Source of the DNA: Coffea arabica
Taxonomy: Eukaryota; Streptophyta; Magnoliopsida; Gentianales; Rubiaceae
Length of the DNA stretch: 64,000 nt
Direction: 5' to 3'
NCBI RefSeq assembly: GCF_036785885.1
Contig: NC_092323.1
Coordinates: 8,812,501 to 8,876,500, forward strand
The position numbers and the translations under genes were made by a program. This document shows, in pieces, positions 11,770 through 60,365 of the stretch (position 1 is its first letter; each line of letters starts with the position of its first letter). The notes beneath the pieces are model-generated. The model ran no database searches and had not been told where the DNA came from. It was given only the letters and a program-made list of their open reading frames with translations.

Positions 11770-11931
11770 ATGAGAGATTATTTAAAATATTATTTAAAAT
11801 AATTACAATAATATTTTTCATGATGTAATACATGTGAGATAAAAATTTAATTAATAAAATAAAAAAATATGTTAAAAATTATGTTTGTAATATAAACAAT
11901 TCATTTTTTACTATTATTTGGGTATCCAAAT
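11770..11931 (+). mobile_element. AT-rich MITE family, copy 2
   Basis: It contains the family core: attatttaaaataattac, then a gatgtaatacatgtgagata motif, and an end near tatccaaat. It lies directly beside a second copy (11938-12083) in the PEARLI-4/bL12m intergenic promoter region. Confidence 0.6.
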
Positions 11932-11937
11932 ACATAG

Positions 11938-12083
11938 AGTATTATTTAAAATAATTACTGTAGCACTTTTTTTTATGTGATGCATGTGAGATAAAAAATA
12001 ATAAAAAAAACAAAAAAAATAAATTAAAAAATATATTTATAATACAAATAAAATATTATTTAAAATAAATTTGCAATCCAAAC
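11938..12083 (+). mobile_element. AT-rich MITE family, copy 3
   Basis: Core aataattactgtagcac followed by atgtgatgcatgtgagata, with the end tttgcaatccaaac. It is tandem with copy 2, in the same orientation. No open frame is present. It probably belongs to a TIR-class nonautonomous DNA transposon family. Confidence 0.65.
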
Positions 12084-12396
12084 ACGCTCAGTTCTAATAC
12101 ACACCGTAATTTTCAAAACAAGTAGTAGTAGTAATAGACAAAACCATTGACAAATAAAAAGAAAAGAAATAGCTATTGATGTAAAAATGTAAAGCCTGCC
12201 TCTCCGACTCTCGGTCCCAGAAAGCAAGGCCCAAACATCCTTCCTCAATCCCAAACCTTAAACCCACCAAAAATTTTCTCCGCTCGTCCGCAGTCCTCAC
12301 TCGAGCTGCTTCTAAAGTCCCTGCAATTTAGCAATTTTAAAGCCATGCTTCCGTAGTCTGTGATTTCTTCACTCCCCATAATAGATTGCTCTGACA

Positions 12397-12981: not shown

Positions 12982-15153
12982 GGTAACTGCTTTTGCATTC
13001 ATGCTTATTCGAGTAAGCTTAGGCAGAGTTTAAGCTATTGGTACAATGGTACTTTGTTCTTATGATTCTGGAATTTAAGTGCTTCTATTCCATTATGATG
13101 AATTGGGTGTCTCAATAACTGAATTTGTTGGCAAAACTGGCTGCTTTCATACTTCAGGATCTCGTTTGATATAGATTCTGAATTTGTCATTCGGGCATTT
13201 GTAGAATGATGCTATCTTTGCTGTTTTTGTACGGTCTTGTCCAGCTTTTTTCGTAGATAAATAGGTCTTACCCATATGATGAATAAAAGTATGGATTTTG
13301 TTGCGTGCGTTGTCTGGAGTCTATCACGTGAATTGCAGTCACACAGAGATCTGCCTGCTTTCATAACTCAAACTTGTTTCAGTTGCTGTTGGGCTTGATA
13401 AAGTTTTCGTGTTGTTAATTAGGATGGCCAAAGAAGTCTATATTTCCTTGATTACTTTACGATTGGACTCTCTGATAACTTAATAAGAAGGCAAATGGAT
13501 AGTGGAGCTGCTATGGCCATATACTTTGATCTGGTCAAATTTTTCCTGACCACAATAGGAATATATAGTTAGACAGACTTCAAGTTACTTTCATTTGGAT
13601 TTAAGAACTATCCATTTTTTGGACTGAAAATTCAGGAGGACATACTACCTTGTAACTTGTAAGTGGTATTTTAAATGGTGCCTCAGGAAGCACATTGGAA
13701 TCATTAATGTATTTTGTGTGAAGCTCAATTGCCATGGGGCATCATGGAGGTGGGGTTAGGGCTGTCATTTGAATTTTAATAAGGATGGTCTCTATCTCCT
13801 GTACACCCACTCTCCATGTCATGGTAGTAGGAGTAGTGAAGGCGCACACGGTGTGGCATATTTAAGAGTTCAGGGTGTTCATTAAACTCATTATAGATGT
13901 TATTTTCTTCCTGACATTCAGAATAATTTGAATTTACAATTACATGTTGTCAAGTGCTTGGATATTTGGAACTTTTTAATGGGTACTGATTTGCATATTA
14001 CGCTTTTTGTTCAGGATTTTTCCATTTTCAATGCCAGCAGCATAACAACTTTTAGAGGTTCCGCTCTGCAACCTGATTCTGCTGCAGTTGATGTATTAAT
14101 GAAGTTATTGGTTGATGGGCAACACATATTAGTTTGACCTTTGATCACCGAGAGTAGGGATTTCTGTAACTCCTTTTATTATGATTGAACTCAAAGTGTA
14201 TGGTAAGCTTGAGTTACATTTGTTACAGCTCTGCAACCGAAGTGAAGTATTTCCATTTGGGGTTAGTTGTTCAAGCTGCAGACAACGCGTAATGTTTTCT
14301 TATTATGAAAGTCAACAGATTTAAGAAGTTTCTTCCCATGCGTAATTAGATTGAGTCAAGGTTGTTACATTTTTGAAGTAGCTTTGTATGACCTGAACAT
14401 CTTCAGTGTTTGTCATGGTGGTCATCCTTCCAGCTTTTATCTTTCTTATGGAATGCTTAAATTTCTGAGAAACTACTTGTATTATAATAATATTAAGCAT
14501 TTGACATGAGATTTTACAATTATTTTGTTGTTTTTCAGTTACAATTTCCAACACACCTTTTTACATTCTCAGTTACCTTTTTATCTCACATACATCACAT
14601 CACAAAAAGTGCTACGGTAAAAATATCTCAAATAATTTACAATCCAAACAGAGTTTATTTTGGCAAAACGCACGCTCTGCTGAAGCACTCCGTGGAGGAA
14701 GTCGAGCACGCTAATCTTTGAACGAAGGGAATGTAATAGTAAAACTTTTACCATCAATCAGAAAGTAAAACGGAAGAATTATCAGGCTAAAGCTAAACCC
14801 AACAAAAGAGAGAAGCCGCCTCAAAAGAGAATTGAAAATGTCGTACAAGGCAAGCAACCAAAGTATATAAAATTCTCAGTAGTGTTAGTTTCCCTCCTCT
14901 ACTGTTACATCCCAGGTTCAGATTGTATGGTGGCGGAATCAATCATTTATTGATTACTTGTCATTCTCTTCTCTTCTTATATAGGATAGGAATAGACTGG
15001 AGCTTCCACGATTTGTGGCTTCCGTATCGTTCTCCGTAATATTTGGGCGTCTTATTCTCTCTTTCTTGTTTGAATTTGATCAATGAAAAGAAATGATAGG
15101 AAAAACGCTGTCGTAGCAGAACCAAGAATACTGACGGAGCTTTAATAGCGGAG
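12982..15153. other. Intergenic stretch, bL12m 3' flank to FOLT1 upstream region
   Basis: No coding segment is recognised; the frame at 13928-14137 has no family features. It contains one MITE copy at 14510-14653. The last ~150 bases are the FOLT1 leader. Confidence 0.5.
14510..14653 (-). mobile_element. AT-rich MITE family, copy 4
   Basis: This is the reverse complement of the family core: tatctcacatacatcacatc, then aaaaagtgctacggta, ending tttacaatccaaac. It is intergenic, about 500 bp upstream of the FOLT1 start codon. Confidence 0.65.
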
Positions 15154-35624: not shown

Positions 35625-38600
35625 ATGGCGACTGCCACTGCTGCCGCTGCTGCTTCCATATCTTCTTCAGTGTCGTCTGTCTTAAACCAACCCTACCACC
35701 ACCCTTCTCTAATCATCCGGCTTCCTCGGAGATGCTCCGCCGCCTTCTCTCGCCGACTCCTTGGGTCCCCAAATCCCCTGAAAACCTCATCATCTCTCTC
35801 CCGTTCTTCCTACCATGTCCTCGCCCGCTCGCCATTATTAAAAGCGCGGCGATGTTTAACCTTTTCTTTAGGATTCGTTCGGAACTCAGCATCGCACATT
35901 CCGCTTTCCCAAAAGCAAGAAATCCCGAGTCTCCACCATTTCATGCCAAAAGCTACTCCCGTTCCTTCTGTTTCTGAACCCCAATTCGAGTAAGTTGGGG
36001 ATTCCATCGATTTCATTTTTATGCGTGGTTTTATGTTTGTATTAATTCTGGGTTCTGTCTGCTGGAAGTATTTGCCTTGGATAATCTGAGAAAGATTTAA
36101 TCTCGAAGAATTGCCTGGTTGTTATTCAACTTGAAGCTTGTACGTTAGTAATGAGCTCAACTGTTAGTTACTGCTACAAAAATGAATAAGCCTTATCGGT
36201 TTATTTGGCTAGTAATCAAGCTAAAAGAGAAACCACTGAATGCAATTTTCGATTTTGTATCAGTATTTGACGTCATAATTGGATATGTTGGGATTATATT
36301 GTTTGAGCATATTCATTTTTAGTAGAGCGAATTGCGCGAAATGTCACTAAACTATTTCAAAGTGCCGGTTCTGATCATTAAACTTTTTTATTAGCGCGAA
36401 ATGTCACTGAACTAGTAAATCTATACCGTTTTGGTCACTCCGTGTATTTGTGCGGAAATCAACTTTTTGAGGGGTAATTTCGTCTACACAATAGTTAAAA
36501 AATTTATGCCTTCATTCTTCTTCACCCACAACCATAGTGCTATACCATATTTACATTCCCAGCCTTCCCGTACGCATCAATCATCACAGAATAGGTAACC
36601 TCATCCGGTTCACACCCAAAAGACGGCATTTTTTCGAACCACTGGACGGCTTTCTCAGGTAAAGAAGACAGCCTGGCGCAGCTAATTATGGTGGAAAGGA
36701 GGAGTATTGGACCAGCAATCAAAGAATCAAGAGATGAATTCGCTGAAGAAGGGTTCTTTTCGTCCTCTGGGGCTGCTGCTTGGCCTTGTACCTGTCCCAT
36801 ATCTCATCGAGATTGGATGCTACGGAGATGAAGTAAGAGGAAAAGGCAACAGCAGCAACCAAAAAATTGGGATGGACGAGAATTTTGAAGTTGGAGTTGG
36901 GGTTGGGTGCTATCTGCAACCCATGTAAAGTTGTGGAGTGATTTGCGATTAATCTGTTAAATGTTATTGTGCCAACTGCCAACAGAATTGGAATGGACAT
37001 CAAAGTCCAGTGTAGGCCGACGACGGACGGAGCTCTCTATGCCCACCCACTTCTGCAACAAAACCACCGAACTTTACATTTAATTTCTCATTCTTTTCAC
37101 TCTTTCCGCATCGTCATTTTCGCCACTCCCAACCCCAGAGGTATGTAAAGGTGACATTATCGGGCTTAACTCCTCTCTCAATCATATCCGTAAACAATTT
37201 CTCGGCTCTGTCCAAGTCTCTACATTTTCTAAACACCTTGAAGGTAACATTATACAAAATCACTTCTTTCTTCAACTTAAGCCTTTCCAGAAAGTAACTC
37301 AGCACCAAAGGCGCAGTTTCAGAGTTGGACATGTTATTGAGCACAACGGCAGCATCTTGCTCTACAACTTTGCCACCCAAATTAGCCAAAATACTAATAA
37401 CGTCAGCTTCTACAGGGTCACACGAGTCCAATTGTTGGGAAGCTTGGACTAAAGAAGCATACCTGAAATCGTAGGAATTGCGCCTGAGCTTTGATGCCCT
37501 GGAGCTGTTGGGGTTGACCCAGATATAGCTTTTTGAGGAAGAAGAGATGGTTTTAGCATCTGGGCGGTGAGGAATTTGGGAAATTGAGGGGGATTGTTGT
37601 TGGGAAGCCGGTATAGAGAGGGAAGGTTTTGGATGGGGCTTGAGAGGAGGAAAAGCGAGGGCGTTATGGGGGATGATTCTGAGTTGGTGGAGGTGAGTGG
37701 GATAAAGAGAGTTACAGAAGAGGTGTGGGTGGCGAGAGAGATGAGACGGCGAATAGGCGGCGGCCACCATTCTTCTCTCTACTCTTCTTCCTTCCTTCTC
37801 AGTCGTCACTCACTCAGCAGAGCAGTCAGCAGCATTTGAATTTTCTTCTTTTTTACAACTATGAAAAATTTCGCCTGCATTTTTTGGTTGAAGTTTGATG
37901 GTGCCGCCATTCAGATCAGCCATCTCCTTTATGTCTTTGCCGGATACGGAACCATTGATTATGTAAAAGCTTCAAGAAAAAGGCTGTGCTGACAAATTTG
38001 CCCCTCAAAAAGTTGATTTCCGTCTCTCCTAACGGCACAAATACACGGAGTGACTAAAACGGTATAGATTTACTAGTTCAGTGACATTTCGCGCTAATAA
38101 AAAAGTTTAGTGACCAGAACCGGCACTTTGAAATAGTTTAGTGACATTTCGCGCAATTCGCTCTTTTTAGTATCTCATTTAGCTATTATTGTATGCTTAA
38201 CAATGCCATTATTTAACCTTTGCCTTCTTGACGCTTTCCGGTTTTGATGTTGAATAGTTGTGTTTGCTCTTCATAGTGTTTAGTGTCGACTGATCATACA
38301 GATGGGTATCTTCTGAAACTAAAGCCGTTATATGCACAGAGTTGTTGTCTTGTCAACAGTGCAGTGTCTAAGTACTAGCGACTTCATATACTTATAGTTT
38401 TCTTAAACATAAAGAGCTCTTATGTCCAATTACAAATATCTCATTGTTATTTCTCTTCTTGTTTATTTTTGTCCTAGCTTGATAGCACCTTCTGAAGTTC
38501 TTCCAAGAGGTCGTATTTATCAAGAAACATATGGATGTCAGATGAATGTCAATGATATGGAGATAGTATTATCTATCATGAAGAAAGCTGGGTATAGTGA

Positions 38601-40395
38601 AGTGGTGGATGTTCCTGAGAGTGCAGAGATAATATTTGTCAACACATGTGCTATTAGGGACAATGCAGAGCACAAGGTATGGCAGAGGCTCAATTACTTT
38701 TGGTTTCTTAAGAGGCATTGGAAGAGCAATGTTGCCATTGGACGGTCACAGTCCCTGCATCCTCCGAAAGTTGTTGTTCTCAGCTGTATGGCTGAGAGGT
38801 TGAAGGAGAAGATATTAGATGCAGATAAGATGGTTGATGTTGTTTGTGGACCTGATGCTTATAGAGACCTGCCACGCCTATTAGAAGAGGTAGACTCTGG
38901 TCAAAAAGGGATTAACACTCTACTTTCACTTGAAGAAACTTATGCTGATATCAATCCTGTTCGTATCTCTAAAAATTCAATCAGTGCTTTTGTCTCAATT
39001 ATGAGAGGTTGCAATAATATGTGCTCCTTTTGCATTGTTCCTTTCACCAGAGGCAGAGAGAGATCTAGGCCAGTGGAATCCATTGTTAGAGAGGTGGGAG
39101 AGCTTTGGAAAGAATGTGTTAAAGAGGTGACACTTCTTGGTCAGAATGTTAACAGTTACAATGACACATCCGGGCTTGAAAAAGAAATTGAACCAGGAGT
39201 AAACTGGAAACTTAGTGAAGGTTTTTCCAGCATGTGTAAGGTTAAAAAGATGGGTTTACGCTTTGCAGATCTCTTGGATAGACTTGCTGTGGAATTTCCA
39301 GAGATGCGGTTTAGATTCACTTCACCACACCCTAAAGATTTTCCTGATGAGTTGTTGTATGTAATGCGAGACAGACACAATATCTGCAAAAGCATCCATT
39401 TGCCTGCACAATCAGGGAACAGTAACGTGCTGAAAAAGATGCGACGTGGCTATACACGAGAAGCATATTTAGAACTTGTGAGTAAGATACGGAGTATAAT
39501 TCCTGATATGGGGATCAGCAGTGATTTTATTTGTGGTGAGAGTCTTATTCACATTGGTTTTACTCATCGTATTCTTAGTTTTCATTAATTATTTTATCTT
39601 CTCTTCTTTGATTTTCTTCATTTTATTGCATTTTTCTGGTTCTTTTACACCTCATGGCTTGTCATCAAGTTCCTGACTCTCCCTGATTATCAAATGGCAC
39701 CACTGTCAATCATGAATCTCTGGGGTTTAAGTTTCATATGGATCCTGTAATTGCCAAGCACTCCCATGTTTTGGCAGTAGTTGACCAAATCTTCTTGAGC
39801 TTTTAATTTTAATTGGTTGGACTATTTTGGGGATAGGATTGCTTATGAATCATTTCTTGTCTGAATAATTTGGTGCCTTGATGCAGGTTTTTGTGGTGAA
39901 ACAGAGGAGGAGCACCAAGACACACTTACCCTGATGAAGGCTGTCAGTTATGATATGGCATACATGTTTGCATACAGTATGAGAGAGAAAACCCATGCCC
40001 ACAGGAATTACGTGGATGATGTTCTTGAAGATGTAAAGCAGAGACGGCTAACAGAGCTTATTGAAGCTTTCCGGGAGAGTACAGGTCAGTGCTTTGACTC
40101 CCAATTTGGCAGTGTCCAACTTGTGTTAGTTGAAGGGCCCAATAAGAGGGCCCCTGACACAGAGCTTATAGGCAAGAGCGATAGAGGCCACAGGGTATCT
40201 TTCAGAAACTTGCCTGTCCCTGATAGGGTTGAGATTGATGGTAAAAGGAATCCAAGAGTTGGTGATTTTGTGGAAGTTCATATTTCAAAAACCTCAAGAG
40301 CGACACTCTTTGGAGAAGCACTTGCGATTACTAAACTGAGCTCATTTTATGACAATCTACATGAACCTGCTTTTGCCTGTGCTAGCGGAATTTGA
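35625..40395 (+). CDS. MiaB/CDK5RAP1-like tRNA methylthiotransferase, organellar
   Basis: Exons 35625-35989, 38478-39535 and 39887-40395 join in phase to 643 residues. The chosen ATG ([11 protein letters not shown]) aligns with the start I recall for Arabidopsis At4g36390. An in-frame ATG at 35505 would add 40 residues. A Ser/Arg-rich transit peptide fills most of exon 1. The N-terminal UPF0004 domain has cysteines in [22 protein letters not shown] and LSCMAERL for one Fe-S cluster. The radical-SAM motif [13 protein letters not shown] supplies the second cluster. A TRAM domain closes the protein (GDFVEVHI). The family converts i6A to ms2i6A at tRNA position 37. Intron 1 (35990-38477) contains a complete Pack-MULE. 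Confidence 0.93.
36540..36692 (-). pseudogene. Second captured PPR fragment within the Pack-MULE
   Basis: The minus-strand reading [19 protein letters not shown] continues through [20 protein letters not shown] and stops. It picks up the SVR7-like protein exactly where the first fragment leaves off (NVTFT/TIISCAR). It covers one PPR unit plus the start of the next, then ends near the left inverted repeat. The donor gene is not in this window. Confidence 0.82.
36700..37130 (-). other. Non-PPR filler within the Pack-MULE
   Basis: About 430 bp separates the two PPR fragments. On the minus strand it holds a 94-residue frame (36719-37003) containing [17 protein letters not shown], which I cannot assign. 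A ttttgttgcag acceptor-like site precedes it. It may be a second captured gene piece or an altered intron of the donor. Confidence 0.5.
37142..37809 (-). pseudogene. Captured N-terminal fragment of an SVR7-like PPR protein
   Basis: An uninterrupted minus-strand frame begins with Met at 37809 and runs about 220 residues. After a Ser/Pro/His-rich, transit-peptide-like N-terminus it reads [20 protein letters not shown], then [16 protein letters not shown], then a PPR-type helix pair ending [12 protein letters not shown]. These are landmarks of Arabidopsis SVR7 (At4g16390), a plastid PPR-SMR protein. Similarity stops at about 37142, where unrelated sequence begins. The frame closes soon after at 37114. 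It is antisense to the host gene and sits wholly within the Pack-MULE. Confidence 0.85.
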
Positions 40396-43317: not shown

Positions 43318-44700
43318 TTTCGACATTCTATCAAGTGGACATTTTATTTTCATGCCACGTGCCAAATTAAATTGCAAGAAAAAGTGTGTCCATTTATATC
43401 TCGGTGGATTTTATTTTTCTTTTTTTGGTAACAATTAATTATACACCTTATTAGAGTTCCTTATTTATAGTCAATTTCACCCAATCTATTAATGACCTAC
43501 CTTATATAAGTTTGTATTAATTATATCTTTTTATTTTTTTTGGTCAATCAACTCATATCTTTCTTTTTAATCTTCCTCAATTACTTTTTCAATTCTTGTT
43601 ATTGGCTTGATTACTTATTACCATTACTAAAATTTGAACAAAATATAGATATTAATGCTCACGTAGATAGTATTTCTCTTGATGGGTTACTAAGCAGGCT
43701 ATACTGAAAAAAAAGTTGCCTATTCCGGTTTTTTATCAAGTGTAAATTCTATCTTTTCGCCACGTGGAAAAAATTATGTTTGCTTATGTTTCTTGGTGTG
43801 TTTTATTCTTTCTTGGTTAACAATTAATTATAGTCCTTTATTACTTTTTTATTTATAGTAAAATTTAAACAATCAAATAATTGCCTACTGTATATACATT
43901 TCCATAATTTATGCTTTATTTTATGCATTTTTCTAATTGGTATCTAATGAACACTTGTTAACACACCTACATGTCACCCCAACCTATCATTTTTATACAC
44001 ACACTAATAATTACTACTTTATCTTACATTTATATACTTTTTCTAATTAATCTCCTTGTATTTATACACTTTTGATAGTTAATTTTATATTTCTAAAAAT
44101 CTAACACTTGAAATACATCTTAACAAGTACCCATAGGGCACCCATTAGACATACCATTATTTTATTTTTGTTAATAGCTTTCATTTTTTAATTCTCTACA
44201 ATCACATCTGATTTTTTGCCAATTGTAAGATCTATCTTTTCACCATGTACAAAAATATTGTGTATGGCTCTTGCTGAATTTTTAATTTTCACCACGTACA
44301 AAAATATTTTTTTAATTATAATTCTTTATTATTGTCTTATTTGTAGTAAACTTTAAACTTTAAACAACTGATTAATTACCTACTTTATACACATTTCTAT
44401 AATTTAAGCTTAACTTTATTTTTTGTTAATAGCTTTCTTTTTATAATTCTCTACAATCATATCTGATTTTTGTCAAGTGTAAGTTCTATATTTTTACCAT
44501 GGAGAAAAATATTGTGTTTGCTTATGTTTTTTGGTGGATTTTAATTTTTTTTGGTAACAATTAATTATAGTCCTTTATTACTTTCTTATCAGTTAATTAC
44601 CTACTTCATATACATTTCTATAATTTACGCTTTATTTTATTTTTTGTTAACAGTTTTGGTTTTTAACTCTCTACAATCTCTATTCCTATTATTGAATTAT
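43318..44700 (+). repeat. Diverged tandem-repeat field, about four units
   Basis: Units near 43318-43525, 43720-43930, 44165-44420 and 44418-44690 share ordered landmarks: tcaagtgtaa, then ccacgtggaaaaaa, then ggtaacaattaattatag, then cctttattacttt, then acctacttatatacattt and ctctacaatca. Units 3 and 4 are adjacent with a period of about 253 bp; units 1 and 2 are more diverged and spaced. There is no coding potential. It may be a decayed minisatellite or repeated insertion of one element. Confidence 0.65.
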
Positions 44701-44880
44701 CATTTATTATTAGTAGGATTAATCTTTCACGTATACACTGTCAGCACACTGTTAGCACCGTAGATGAATGACGACTATGTAAAATTTAAATATGAAATTC
44801 AATTTTTGCGCACGTGTCATGGATTCAATGGTAATTGTGTATACACTGTCAGTATACAATATTTACCCTTATTATTATTA
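44701..44880 (+). repeat. Short element with direct copies of gtatacactgtcag
   Basis: The motif gtatacactgtcag occurs near 44732 and 44838, about 105 bp apart and in the same direction, with a related cacactgttag between. It may be a fragment of a dispersed element. Ends were not identified. Confidence 0.35.
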
Positions 44881-46470
44881 TTAAAATTTAGATAAACTTT
44901 CATTTGTATATCAATTTTTTATTTATAGTAAATTAAAATCTATTAATCCCATACCTTATATATATTTACATTCATTACACTTTTCTTTTTTTAAAATCAA
45001 TCAACATTGTTTTTTAAAATTTTCTTCAATTATGTTGACTATATTTCTATTGTTTGATTCGTTTATTTATTTGTAATTCTAAAGTTTTGACAATTTTTAT
45101 TTTTCAATGGATTTATATACTGCAATTCTAGCATATACTCATACAAATCCACTTAAATTATATAAATAATCTTTCTTTTTCTAAATTTTTTCTATTAATT
45201 TTTATGCTCTCTTTCCATTGGAAATCAATTCAAGCTAAAATGGTGTCCATATAAACACCGGATTGTAAAAGTTTTCTCAAATTACCTTTTTGCTAATTTT
45301 TAATAATTTGATCAAATGATAAGTTCATTATCTATTAGTTTGCTTTTTAAAATTCTTATTAGTCATGAAAAATTCAAATATTAAGCACACTTATTTCCAA
45401 ATATATCTTCTTTATTCATATATTGACATACCACCATTAATTAGAGTAAACATAATTGAATCATGGGATAAGGTTTGATTGCAACTAATCATTAAGTTGT
45501 TATGAATTAACTATTTTTAATCTATTTAATTTAAATTTTTATAAATGATATTTTTAGTTATTTTATATCAAATTTTATTTAAAAAATGAAAACTTTAGAG
45601 CATACAAATTGCTCGTGTAAATCCACAGGTACATAACTAATGAAGCATTATATTTCGCAACATTGTAATATATTACCACTGCCATTCTTAGCTTCATAGT
45701 CAAGAGACTCTATGCAAGTACCCAAAGTTTGTGTCTCTGCTAATTCAAGACTAAAGAAGACAAATTTATTATGTCTTTTAATTATTACTGAAACAATTAC
45801 GTCTTAGTTAGGCAAATGTATATTTTCTTTGTGAAGCACGTGCCGCAAAATCTCAATCCTTGAATTAAACTGAATGTATATAGTTTTTTAAAATAAATAG
45901 ACGTAGGAATAGCCACCGGAGCGAACACCCACCTTGTGAAAGGAGTATGAGGTGGGGTGGGGAGGAGGATTTTTCTCCCCCATCTTAAACGAGGTGGGGT
46001 GCGAGAGAGCATAACCTTGCCCCATCTTCCCCTCCGTCCCTTGTATTAATTAAATAAATATAATAAGATTATTAATACATTTATTTTTTCCATATTATTT
46101 TGGGTTAAATTATTAGTACTAGTAGATTCTTTTTTTTTGCTAATAATAGTACTATTTATTAGTATTAGTGATTGTAATATTAGTGAAACCAAATCATGTT
46201 TATGCAATAGCATTTGTTTGAATGACTTACTTTTTGTGATGTCATTGAATCAGTGCAAAATGCTGTTGCATGTCTAGGAAAGTTGTCTCGACTCTCGAAT
46301 CGAGACAAACTGTGAGCTTGTTATGAAGCTTGGACCGCCTCATTAGTGTTTTGCTCGTGTATAAGTACGTGTACTAATGATACATGTATTAGTTTGTGAG
46401 TCTGATGTAACTAGGGCCTAATAGCTCCATTTTATGCACTTATTTCTTATCAATACAGTGTTCATTTGTG
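44881..46470. other. AT-rich intergenic DNA with a GC-rich patch
   Basis: Mostly low-complexity AT-rich sequence. A patch at 45900-46035 (repeated gaggtggggtg) resembles the GC-rich repeat at 46474-46733. No gene was recognised. Confidence 0.4.
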
Positions 46471-50623: not shown

Positions 50624-53600
50624 GCAAGTGACTATACGGTTGGTTGGCTTGCGATGATGGATGATCGATCATATCCTTTGATGTTGCATAGGTTCCACAC
50701 ACAACCCATATTCACGTGTGTGTTCATTGTCATACGTTTGTAGCGTTACTATATATCTATCACTCCAGCCTTTTCCATGATTGATACGGCTTGCGTTTAT
50801 TAACATTCATGATTCATGCCCATGCCCCCCTCTCTCCCATAAGACACAAAAAACCCAGCTCATTGTTAGGTCATCCAATCGAAGATATATAGTCCAATAT
50901 TGAGGCCTTTGTTTAGCGATACATCAATCTCTCTCTCTCTCTCCATAATCTTTAATGCGAAAGTAGAGGGTTATATTATTGTATATACCATCTTTTACCT
51001 GTACTGCTGTACCATTGTTAGGAATAATCTCCCTTTGTCCATTTACCTTGACTAATCATCGTTGCATCGCTATCAGACTGCGTGTGTCTTGCAATTTGAG
51101 GAAATTGTCTGAAACGATGGGTAAATTGGATTAAGACATCTGCCCATCGACTGTAAGGAATTTTTTTTTTTTTTTTTTTTTTTTGGCTGGAGTCACGCTA
51201 CCCTGACTGAGGTTTTTGGCTTCATTTCATGAATTGCAGAAGGGGAGAGTGATACGAGTAGCGAAAAGCTTGACGTTAAATTGTACATGCACTGGTTGTG
51301 GCAGATTTGACTGATGAAATTAATAGTGCTTGGGTGTGATGTGGAATATTTTTTTTAAAAAAATAATTACGGTAACGATTTGATTTTTTTTTTCTATGAT
51401 GTGATATATATAGAATGTAAATAAAATAATTTAAAAAAAAAAATAACGTATTCGTGATAGAAACCACCGGTGTGATATAAATAAAAATATATATATACAT
51501 ATATGACTTATCCAAACACACCGGTGTGACCAGGTACGGGAAGGTGTTCAGAACACATATCTTGGGCAAAGCCATAATCGTGTCAACAGACCCCGAGGTG
51601 AACAAGGTTGTTCTGCAGAATCAAGGGAACGCTTTCATTCCTCATTATCCAAAATCCATCTCCGAACTGCTGGGCAAGTATTCGATATTGCACATTAATG
51701 GACCTCTGCAGAAAAGGTTGCATGCGCTCATCGGAGGCTTCCTGAGGTCACCCCAGTTCAAGGCTCAAATCACTCGAGACATAGAAGAATCCGTTCGACA
51801 TGTCTTCTCATCCTGGATGGAAAAACAAGACCGACGAATTTACCTCCAAGAAGAAAGCAGGAAGGTATCTTTTGTCTTTTTTTTTTGAATCCTCACTATC
51901 GCGCACAAAGACAGAGGTACCTGTTTTTTTAAACAATTATTGTACTTGAGGATGATTAAATAAACCATGGTTAATGTTTCAGATTGCATTTGAAGTCATG
52001 GTAAAAACTTTGATGAGCGTCGGCCGGGGTGAAGATTTGAATTTGTTGAGAAGGGAATTTGAAGAATACTGCAAAGGCTTGATTTCTTTGCCCATTAAAC
52101 TTCCTGGAACGAGGTTGTACAAATCTTTGAAGGTACAAACACATCCTATATATGCAATTGCATGCATGCATCCATCTAATTAATATTTCCAACGGTTTAA
52201 TTATTTACGTTGGAAATATATAACGCAACGCAGTATATTTGACCATTCATAGAATTTTTTTTTTTTTAAAAAAAAAAATTGGTTGTTGAACTTAGTCATT
52301 GGTAGGGTTTGCACATGAATATTATTAGGATCCATGCAGGCTAAAGAAAGGATGTTGAAGGTGGTGAGAAGCATAATACAGCAAAGAAAGATGGCTGCTT
52401 TGGAAGAAAAACAAGGAACGAATGGGTTGCTGAATGACGTAATTGATGTATTATTGCGCGACACGTTTGAATCATCAGCAGCAGAGGAGGCTCAGCCACG
52501 GCTGCCGTTGGATTCGATAGGTGAGAACCTCATAGAGTTGATGATCCCCGGTGAAGAGACTGTTCCGACGGCTCTGACGCTAGCAGTCAAGTTCTTAAGT
52601 GACAGCCCCGTCGAGCTAGCCCGATTGCTGGTATGTAGCAGTACTAGATTTTTTCTTTGTACCGTGGCTGGCGGTAGCATGGATTTTTCAATTGTTTTTT
52701 CAATCGACGGATAGGATGAGGTTCTGGGTAATCCTACGGCTGGGATCAACTAGATGCACGAGCTTCTAGTGGGCCATTGAATGTCAACTTCACTTTATGA
52801 TTGTCGTACTGGATTGACTTTCAAAAGTCATTTTCAATCAGACACACGAGCGCCCACACGTGGGGAGATGCTCGTCGGCCCCACGGTGGTCTGTTTGGAC
52901 TTATTCTAGCCGTACGATTTGGATTGAACGGCTGTCAGCCGGTGGGCCAATCTAACAACTACGTACCTTCTTTGGATTTTTTTTTTCCTTTAGAAAAATT
53001 CTTAAACCATTTTTTGTGAGCATAATTTTTAATTATTTTTTTACCTTATATTTTTTTTAAAACACTAAGCTCCTTTTTTTTTCCTTACTATTTTATACTA
53101 TTATTTTTGTCCGTCAAGTAGTGATTTTTTTTTTTTAAAATAGTGGTGGCTTTTTTCACTAGCTATTTTTTCTTTTTTTTTTGGAGGGGAGCCTTCTTTC
53201 TTTCTTTTTGGGTGTCAGCCTTCTTTCGGTCGGTGTCAGCCTTCTTTCGGTCTAGGTACTACTACACATTTCTTTCAAGATTTCCTTCTTTCTTTCCGGG
53301 TACTACTACAAGTTTCTTACAACTAAAATATGTTTGGATAGCGAATTTTTTCAAAAAATTTTTGCTCGTATCATAAAAATATTTTTTAATTCATCTTTTT
53401 ACATTATCAATCACCTTTTTATTTTAGATACATCACATCACAGAAAATACCATAATAATTAATCAAAATAATTTTTAGGAATAACACTATCAAACAAAGC
53501 CTCCTTTCCAAATTCAAATAGTGTGTACTTCTTGTAAGTTGTAACCTCTTATCACTTGGGCAGGAGGAGAACATGGAACTGAAGCGGCAAAAGGCTAAGT

Positions 53601-58746: not shown

Positions 58747-60216
58747 GGGATAATTGCAGAAACCTCCCCTGAGGTTTCTAACATTTGCACTGACCTCCCC
58801 TGTAGTTTGAAAAATTACACTGACTTCCCCTGAGGTTACTAATCCATTGCAAATTCAGTCCAAACGATTAAAATATTGTTTTAGGGAGTGAAATTAGAAT
58901 TTTTTACCAAATTTGTCATTTGTACTTCATGTCCAATGAATGACAAAATATTACAAATTAATTAACAATGAATAAATTTTAAGGAGTATAGTTTATAGGC
59001 AAATACGCATTATCTATTTAAAGTACTGGCTTTTTATGGGTATTTTACTTTCAAACATTTAATTTAATACAAATACTTACGCTCAAATACATATTTGTAT
59101 TTACTTTCATATATTTAATTTTTGTTAAATACAAAAACTACCAATCTCTCTTCCGTAAAAATATTAATATAACACTTTTTCAATTTTAGTTACAAACATT
59201 TATGTATTTAACATAAATTAAATGATTCAGAATAAAATACCCATAAAGAGCCAATACTTTACTCATGTAATGGAAGAAAACCATAAAGAATTAATACTTT
59301 ATGGGCCATTTCTTTTTTTAAAAAATATTTAATTTACGTTAAATAAATAACCTACCGATTTCCTTTTTGCAAGAATATTACTGTAACACTTTTTGAATTT
59401 TACTTACAAACATTGATATATTTATCATAAATTAAATGTTTGAAAGTAAAATATCCGTAAAAAGCTAATACTTTAAATGAGTAATGCGTGTTTGACTATA
59501 AAGAGCCGGTAACTATTTAAAGTACCGGTTCTTTAAGGGTATTTTACTTTCAAACATTTAATTTAATACAAATATTTACGCTCAAATACAGATTTGTATT
59601 TACTTTCAAATATTAATTTTTATTAAATACAAAACCTACCAATCTCTCTTCCGTAAAAATACTAATATAACACTTTTTCAATTTTAGTTACAAATATTTA
59701 TGTATTTAACATAAATTAAATGATTCAGAATAAAATGCACATAAAGACCGAATACTTTACTCGTGTAATGGATGAAAGCCATAAAAAATTAATACTTTAT
59801 GGGCCATTTATTTTTTTGAAAAAATATTTAATTTATATTAAATGAATAACCTATCGATTTCCTTTTTGCAAGAATATTACTATAACAATTTTTGAATTTT
59901 ACTTACAAATATTGATATATTTATTATAAATTAAATATTTAAAAGTAAAATACCGGTAAAGAGCCGGTACTTTAAATGAGTAATGCGTGTTTGCCCATAA
60001 ATTATACTTCTTGAAGTTTATTAATTGTTAATTGATTTATAGTACTTTGTCATTCATTGGATATGTAGCACAAAGGGCAAATCTGATATAAAATTCTAAT
60101 TTCACTCCCTAAAATAATATTTTAATCGTTTGGACTAAATTTGCAAAGGATTAGTAACCTCAGGGGAGGTCAATGCAAATGTCAGAAACCTCAGGAGAGG
60201 TTTCTGCAATTATCCC
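58747..60216. mobile_element. Nonautonomous MULE-type element with internal tandem duplication
   Basis: The ends are inverted: gggataattgcagaaacctc on the left, and gaggtttctgcaattatccc on the right, with similarity continuing about 250 bp inward (ctaatttcactccctaaaa, gacaaagtac). A perfect 9-bp target duplication taaataaaa lies at 58738-58746 and 60217-60225. There is no coding capacity. The interior holds two ~490-bp tandem units. It sits between the small basic-protein and DIM1B genes, starting about 170 bp upstream of the former's ATG. Confidence 0.9.
59013..59998 (+). repeat. Two ~490-bp tandem units inside the MULE, each an inverted repeat
   Basis: Unit 1 (about 59013-59508) and unit 2 (about 59512-59998) match along their length (tttactttcaaacatttaat, accaatctctcttccgtaaa, gggccattt). 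Each unit begins near actatttaaagtac and ends with its complement, gtactttaaatgagtaatgc, so each folds back on itself. This suggests a nested foldback element that was later duplicated. Confidence 0.8.
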
Positions 60217-60227
60217 TAAATAAAATA

Positions 60228-60365
60228 GTTAGGATAGGAGCTTAGTTGAAATATTACTTGGAATAATTACGGTTATACTTTGTAAATTGTCATATATGAG
60301 AGGTAAAATGGTGCATTGAGAAATTATTTGTAATGAAAGTAAATAATATTTTGACACATAATTGA
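60228..60365 (+). mobile_element. AT-rich MITE family, copy 8 (degenerate)
   Basis: It contains aaatattacttggaataatt, then acggttatac, then gtcatatatgagaggtaaaa, as in the family core. It begins immediately outside the right target duplication of the MULE. The end is not clear. Confidence 0.45.

Follow-up and report, generated by a model that had tools for sequence, protein, structure and literature searches.

What kind of insertion separates the first two exons of a tRNA methylthiotransferase gene of Coffea arabica, how did it come to carry parts of a PPR gene, and could it affect either gene? The locus lies within a window of 64,000 nucleotides, i.e., the whole stretch of DNA that was analysed, and its features are compiled in Table 1. 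Our answer to the first part, held with high confidence, is that the insertion is a non-autonomous Mutator-like element (MULE) carrying the 5′ part of a PPR gene and residing in intron 1 of a MiaB-type gene. The original prediction had described it as a Pack-MULE with antisense PPR pieces in a methylthiotransferase intron, and this description is backed by a target-site duplication (TSD), long terminal inverted repeats (TIRs), the lack of a transposase, and matches of the captured pieces to the PPR_2 family.

Table 1. Coordinates of the element, its captured parts, and the host gene (positions within the window)
Feature	Position	Strand	Remarks
MULE-like element	36325-38163		1,839 bp; boundaries confirmed exactly
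Left TSD, tttttagta	36316-36324	.	9 bp
Right TSD, tttttagta	38164-38172	.	9 bp
Left TIR	36325-36490	+	166 bp aligned
Right TIR	37985-38163	-	179 bp, 13 bp of them missing from the left arm
Captured PPR piece 2	36546-36695	-	continues piece 1 in PPR register; edges uncertain by a few bp
Middle segment between PPR pieces	36696-37146	.	about 451 bp without PPR sequence; edges uncertain by a few bp
218-codon open frame (PPR piece 1)	37114-37770	-	208 codons of PPR-protein N-terminus with own ATG, plus 10 codons of middle segment
Probable captured 5′ untranslated leader	37771-37845	-	far edge judged by eye
Host exon 1, coding part	35625-35989	+	N-terminal extension, no Pfam match
Host intron 1	35990-38477	+	GT-AG, phase 2, 2,488 bp
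Host exon 2 and rest of open stretch	38478-39588	+	UPF0004, radical SAM, MiaB family; 3′ splice edge not fixed
TRAM-domain open stretch	39865-40395	+	probable C-terminal exon of host gene

The extent of the element had been predicted correctly to the base, and all 9 bases of the tttttagta duplication, of a length that is a general feature of Pack-MULEs, are identical on both sides. When the whole window was examined for identical 9-mer pairs at the spacing of the element, one was found in 62,143; this is the TSD itself, because that pair was among those examined. The inverted-repeat search returned TIR arms with 98% identity over 130 nt and 87% over 38 nt. Specifically, the outer alignment contains 3 mismatches in 128 bp, in agreement with the roughly three substitutions originally noted for the outer 130 bp or so, and the inner alignment, past an indel of 13 bp (38023-38035 of the right arm, without counterpart at 36452/36453 of the left), contains 5 in 38 bp, so that 158 of 166 aligned bases are identical. 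The repeats are thus long, as anticipated, and the lengths in Table 1, with the indel, replace the earlier estimate of about 160 to 175 bp. Each arm carries two copies of a 21-nt motif spaced 60 bp apart. With up to three mismatches allowed, this motif has four matches in the 64-kb window, all four inside the element and none outside it, and 100 shuffles gave an expected mean of 0.00. Viral and prokaryote collections yielded 0 exact matches each, which says little for a plant sequence. For the transposase scan, stop-to-stop frames of at least 40 amino acids were compared with Pfam; 22 frames were listed, 21 of which lie within the element (the remaining one ends before it), and none of these 21 has a Pfam transposase match, in line with the original statement that a transposase is lacking.

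We regard "Pack-MULE" as the best reading because the TSD, the long TIRs, and the absence of a recognisable transposase were each looked for and found. In the long TIRs and the lack of a detected transposase the element resembles the Pack-MULEs of rice, tomato, and Arabidopsis (PMC3310237, PMC4858842), as it does in the higher GC content of the putatively captured genic DNA (PMC3310237, PMC4858842), and it shares the 9-bp TSD with grapevine MULEs (PMC2528002). Unlike these precedents, it sits in an intron, where the captured frame runs counter to the host gene, and it was classed from the structure of one copy. The term "Pack-MULE" is absent from the main text of PMC4053705. Another superfamily of DNA transposons with long TIRs has to be weighed, given that the assignment was made from structure only, with no transposase inside the element, and that the grapevine table contains a hAT family, Hatvine-6, with a 9-bp TSD (PMC2528002). 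The same source makes this alternative very improbable: every TSD found for a grapevine MULE is 9 nt in length and long TIRs are typical of MULEs, whereas hAT TIRs measure 8 to 23 bp (13 bp in Hatvine-6) and the TSDs in the PIF rows, and in the CACTA rows where one was seen, are 3 bp (PMC2528002). TIRs of 166 to 179 bp together with a 9-bp TSD fit a MULE best.

The window holds further repeats. A second element, at 58747-60216, is bounded by inverted ends and by the 9-bp duplication taaataaaa and contains four internal 211-bp units; it probably represents a further non-autonomous MULE-like element, whose TIR is different. Related dispersed copies of a short, A+T-rich, MITE-like repeat occur in both orientations at 2079-2239, 11783-12085, 14518-14620, 53348-53488, and 60253-60313, and diverged direct repeats are clustered at irregular spacings at 43376-45013.

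The original prediction had placed the insertion inside an intron of a tRNA methylthiotransferase gene, and the reconstructed reading frame bears this out. The donor site reads GA/GTAAGT, with the intron starting at 35990, and the acceptor CCTAG/C, with 38478 as the first exon base; when exons 1 and 2 are joined in phase 2, the frame is open from the start codon into the MiaB family region. UPF0004 (E = 1.2e-23), radical SAM (E = 4.3e-22), and TRAM (E = 3.4e-10) domains follow, the TRAM domain being the usual C-terminus. The MiaB/RimO family TIGR00089 was matched with 283.9 bits, above its cut-off of 251. The best E-value was obtained for TIGR01574 (MiaB), but its 291.9 bits stay below its own cut-off of 355.3, the query having been a single open stretch rather than the whole protein. 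Among solved structures, the best relative is MiaB in the PDB (E = 6.4e-92). With exon 1 and all splice sites being predicted, the host gene looks intact; without the element and one TSD, intron 1 would measure 640 bp.

On the minus strand of the element, the expected open frame of about 220 codons with its own start codon was found as an ATG at 37770 followed by 218 codons and a stop. Its PPR part, piece 1, matches PPR_2 of Pfam with E = 1.6e-9. The second fragment that had been announced is present as well (piece 2, PPR_2 E = 1.1e-9), but to judge from the repeat register it is better read as a continuation of piece 1. Upstream of the frame, positions 37772 to 37845 of the putative leader have a GC content of 0.459. 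Pfam, NCBIfam, and the PDB assign the pieces to "PPR" only; the N-terminus and first repeats, for which these libraries go no further, may be like those of the PPR-SMR protein SVR7, as the original prediction had stated, and Arabidopsis SVR7 may well continue across the joint between the two pieces. In viral contigs, one stretch fitted the pattern of piece 1, and none was confirmed.

The register argument is as follows. Pfam recognises one complete or near-complete PPR motif in the 218-codon frame; this last motif before the break covers positions 2 to 31 of the 31 in PF01535, and the 208 PPR codons stop a few residues inside a PPR motif. In TIGR00756, residues 186 to 217 of piece 1 correspond to positions 3 to 34, which makes residue 221, where the PPR part ends, position 3 of the motif that follows; the match of piece 2 begins at position 4 of 35. 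When the pieces were joined in register, the join outscored all four shifted joins in all five PPR models listed: PPR_2 (81.8 bits versus 77.8, 77.3, 67.5, and 76.0), PPR (61.7 versus 55.9, 55.2, 55.8, and 53.1), PPR_1 (59.3 versus 51.4, 49.8, 43.6, and 51.0), PPR_3 (44.0 versus 39.5, 39.5, 33.1, and 38.1), and PPR_long (26.0 versus 20.1, 14.5, 15.0, and 17.6). The best shifted join trails by a modest margin (4 bits in PPR_2), and Mtf2, a family that stays below threshold, favours one of the shifted joins (18.9 versus 13.2 bits); continuity of the two pieces in repeat register is therefore likely, short of proof. Since they meet in exact register, the pieces are probably one capture, split by approximately 451 bp of other DNA.

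In the frames of at least 40 amino acids that overlap this middle segment, no Pfam match outside the PPR parts exceeded the cut-off; the sub-threshold hits to CD52 (E = 0.096), SMUBP-2_HCS1_1B (E = 0.12), and DUF218 (E = 0.068) were taken as chance. Codon scores are indecisive in all six frames, and the scores have little power, as the PPR frames also score near zero. The GC content of the segment (0.457) is like that of the PPR parts (0.462 and 0.465) and above that of the intron flanks (0.340 and 0.341), which makes a genic origin plausible, and the segment may represent a second captured gene. In Oryza, chimeras of at least two parents amount to 5 to 10% of MULE-derived genes, and few are under constraint (PMC4858842); Pack-TYPE elements are likewise described as combining material from several loci (PMC8903248). 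On the minus strand, an ATG at 36800 within the middle segment opens a frame that leads in frame into PPR piece 2 (36540-36800), possibly by accident.

The contiguous register of the two PPR pieces would also suit a donor PPR gene that already contained the 451 bp or so, as an intron or an insertion, and was captured in one uninterrupted stretch. We consider this unlikely, though it keeps a real share of the probability. None of the 794 in-frame joins examined around the junctions has GT-AG or GC-AG ends; this argues against a donor intron, which was rejected as the source, though not against an insertion in the donor. Inspected by eye, the edges of the segment showed neither inverted ends nor a clear duplication, apart from a short CCTTT common to both sides of the PPR break. 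A template switch out of the PPR gene to another place and back would give the observed break pattern, and so would a second capture nested within the first or a donor already carrying an insertion. The split may also stem from an altered donor, or from DNA that entered the element at a later time. Animal Pack-TIRs are attributed to gap filling or FoSTeST (PMC8277862). In the present element, which is from a plant, a switch of template at a few shared bases would account for the break.

Divergence between the TIRs ranges from K = 0.023 (outer part) to K = 0.048 (all aligned positions), which would translate to about 0.9 to 3.4 million years at rates of 7e-9 to 1.3e-8. Insertion does not, however, produce both TIR arms from a single template; their divergence therefore gives no insertion date, and the mismatch count was rejected as one. 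High TIR identity has been taken as a rough indication that an element is young (PMC3310237). The earlier view of a fairly recent insertion is weakly supported: the outer TIR has 3 mismatches in 128 bp, but the repeat as a whole has 8 in 166 positions plus the 13-bp indel.

The same divergence values serve as an age guide for the open frame. The possession of an ATG and a leader, 218 open codons, and an overall open stretch of 231 codons, a length that 0 of 1,000 first-order Markov sequences reached, could speak for expression as a truncated protein under selection. The frame, however, was inherited from a coding donor, so that the comparison with random sequences shows past coding only and was rejected as evidence of function. 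Under a model in which indels amount to 10% of substitutions and two thirds of them shift the frame, the probability that the frame stays open neutrally is 0.50 at K = 0.023 or 0.24 at K = 0.048; its openness is therefore no sign of function or selection. As Pfam finds a single complete or near-complete PPR motif in the frame, and as protein-coding Pack-MULEs are called rare (PMC8277862), we give a selected truncated protein very little credence.

The PPR frame and the host gene lie on opposite strands, so that the pre-mRNA of the host is antisense to the donor PPR gene. The predicted minimum-energy fold of the 2,488-nt intron RNA pairs 160 of 166 bases of the left TIR with the right TIR, as is expected of any inverted repeat. 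Small RNAs would not depend on a promoter for the minus strand, since the plus-strand pre-mRNA already contains PPR-antisense sequence flanked by TIRs that are predicted to pair; transcription of the minus strand is a further possibility, as TIR promoters driving internal sequences have been reported (PMC3310237). An effect of an antisense transcript on the host or the donor gene, as originally proposed, is possible. One such scheme would have the intron of the host pre-mRNA fold back and be diced, silencing relatives of the element and perhaps the donor PPR gene. The predicted TIR pairing and the opposite strand of the PPR pieces speak for it, and it has been discussed that captured fragments may act through antisense or small RNA (PMC2528002, PMC8277862); introns, however, are normally spliced and degraded, and a comparable fold would come from any inverted repeat, which leaves the scheme improbable. 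The stronger version, in which the intron of a housekeeping gene has become a constitutive fold-back precursor with PPR-antisense RNA between 98%-complementary TIR arms in each host transcript, has in our estimate only a very slim chance of being correct. If true, such an intron would link how strongly a tRNA-modifying enzyme is expressed with the silencing of a PPR gene for an organelle protein. A partial parallel is offered by the Cactavine-5 CACTA elements of grapevine, which contain PPR gene sequence in reverse orientation, so that transcripts of this piece could be antisense to PPR genes (PMC2528002). They differ in superfamily, in carrying a coding part plus 3′ untranslated region, and in having the PPR piece downstream of the element's own transposase (PMC2528002).

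Taken as a sequence of events, the preferred reading, a Pack-MULE in a MiaB-type gene, would begin with the capture, via gap repair or template switching, of the 5′ portion of a plant PPR gene, comprising its leader, its start codon, and about 258 codons in all, together with the stretch of approximately 451 bp by which the PPR sequence is now interrupted. The element would then have been mobilised by a MULE transposase encoded elsewhere and inserted into intron 1 of the methylthiotransferase gene, giving rise to the 9-bp duplication. As the likeliest outcome, the insert would be spliced out with the intron and decay neutrally, any small-RNA effect being possible but secondary.

Gene-carrying transposons of this sort are already well known in plants. 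The present one is clean and complete, with readable junctions, and its insertion site allows occupied and empty alleles to be compared for effects on the host gene. Its most informative detail is the split yet in-register PPR capture, a small record of how such elements acquire DNA.
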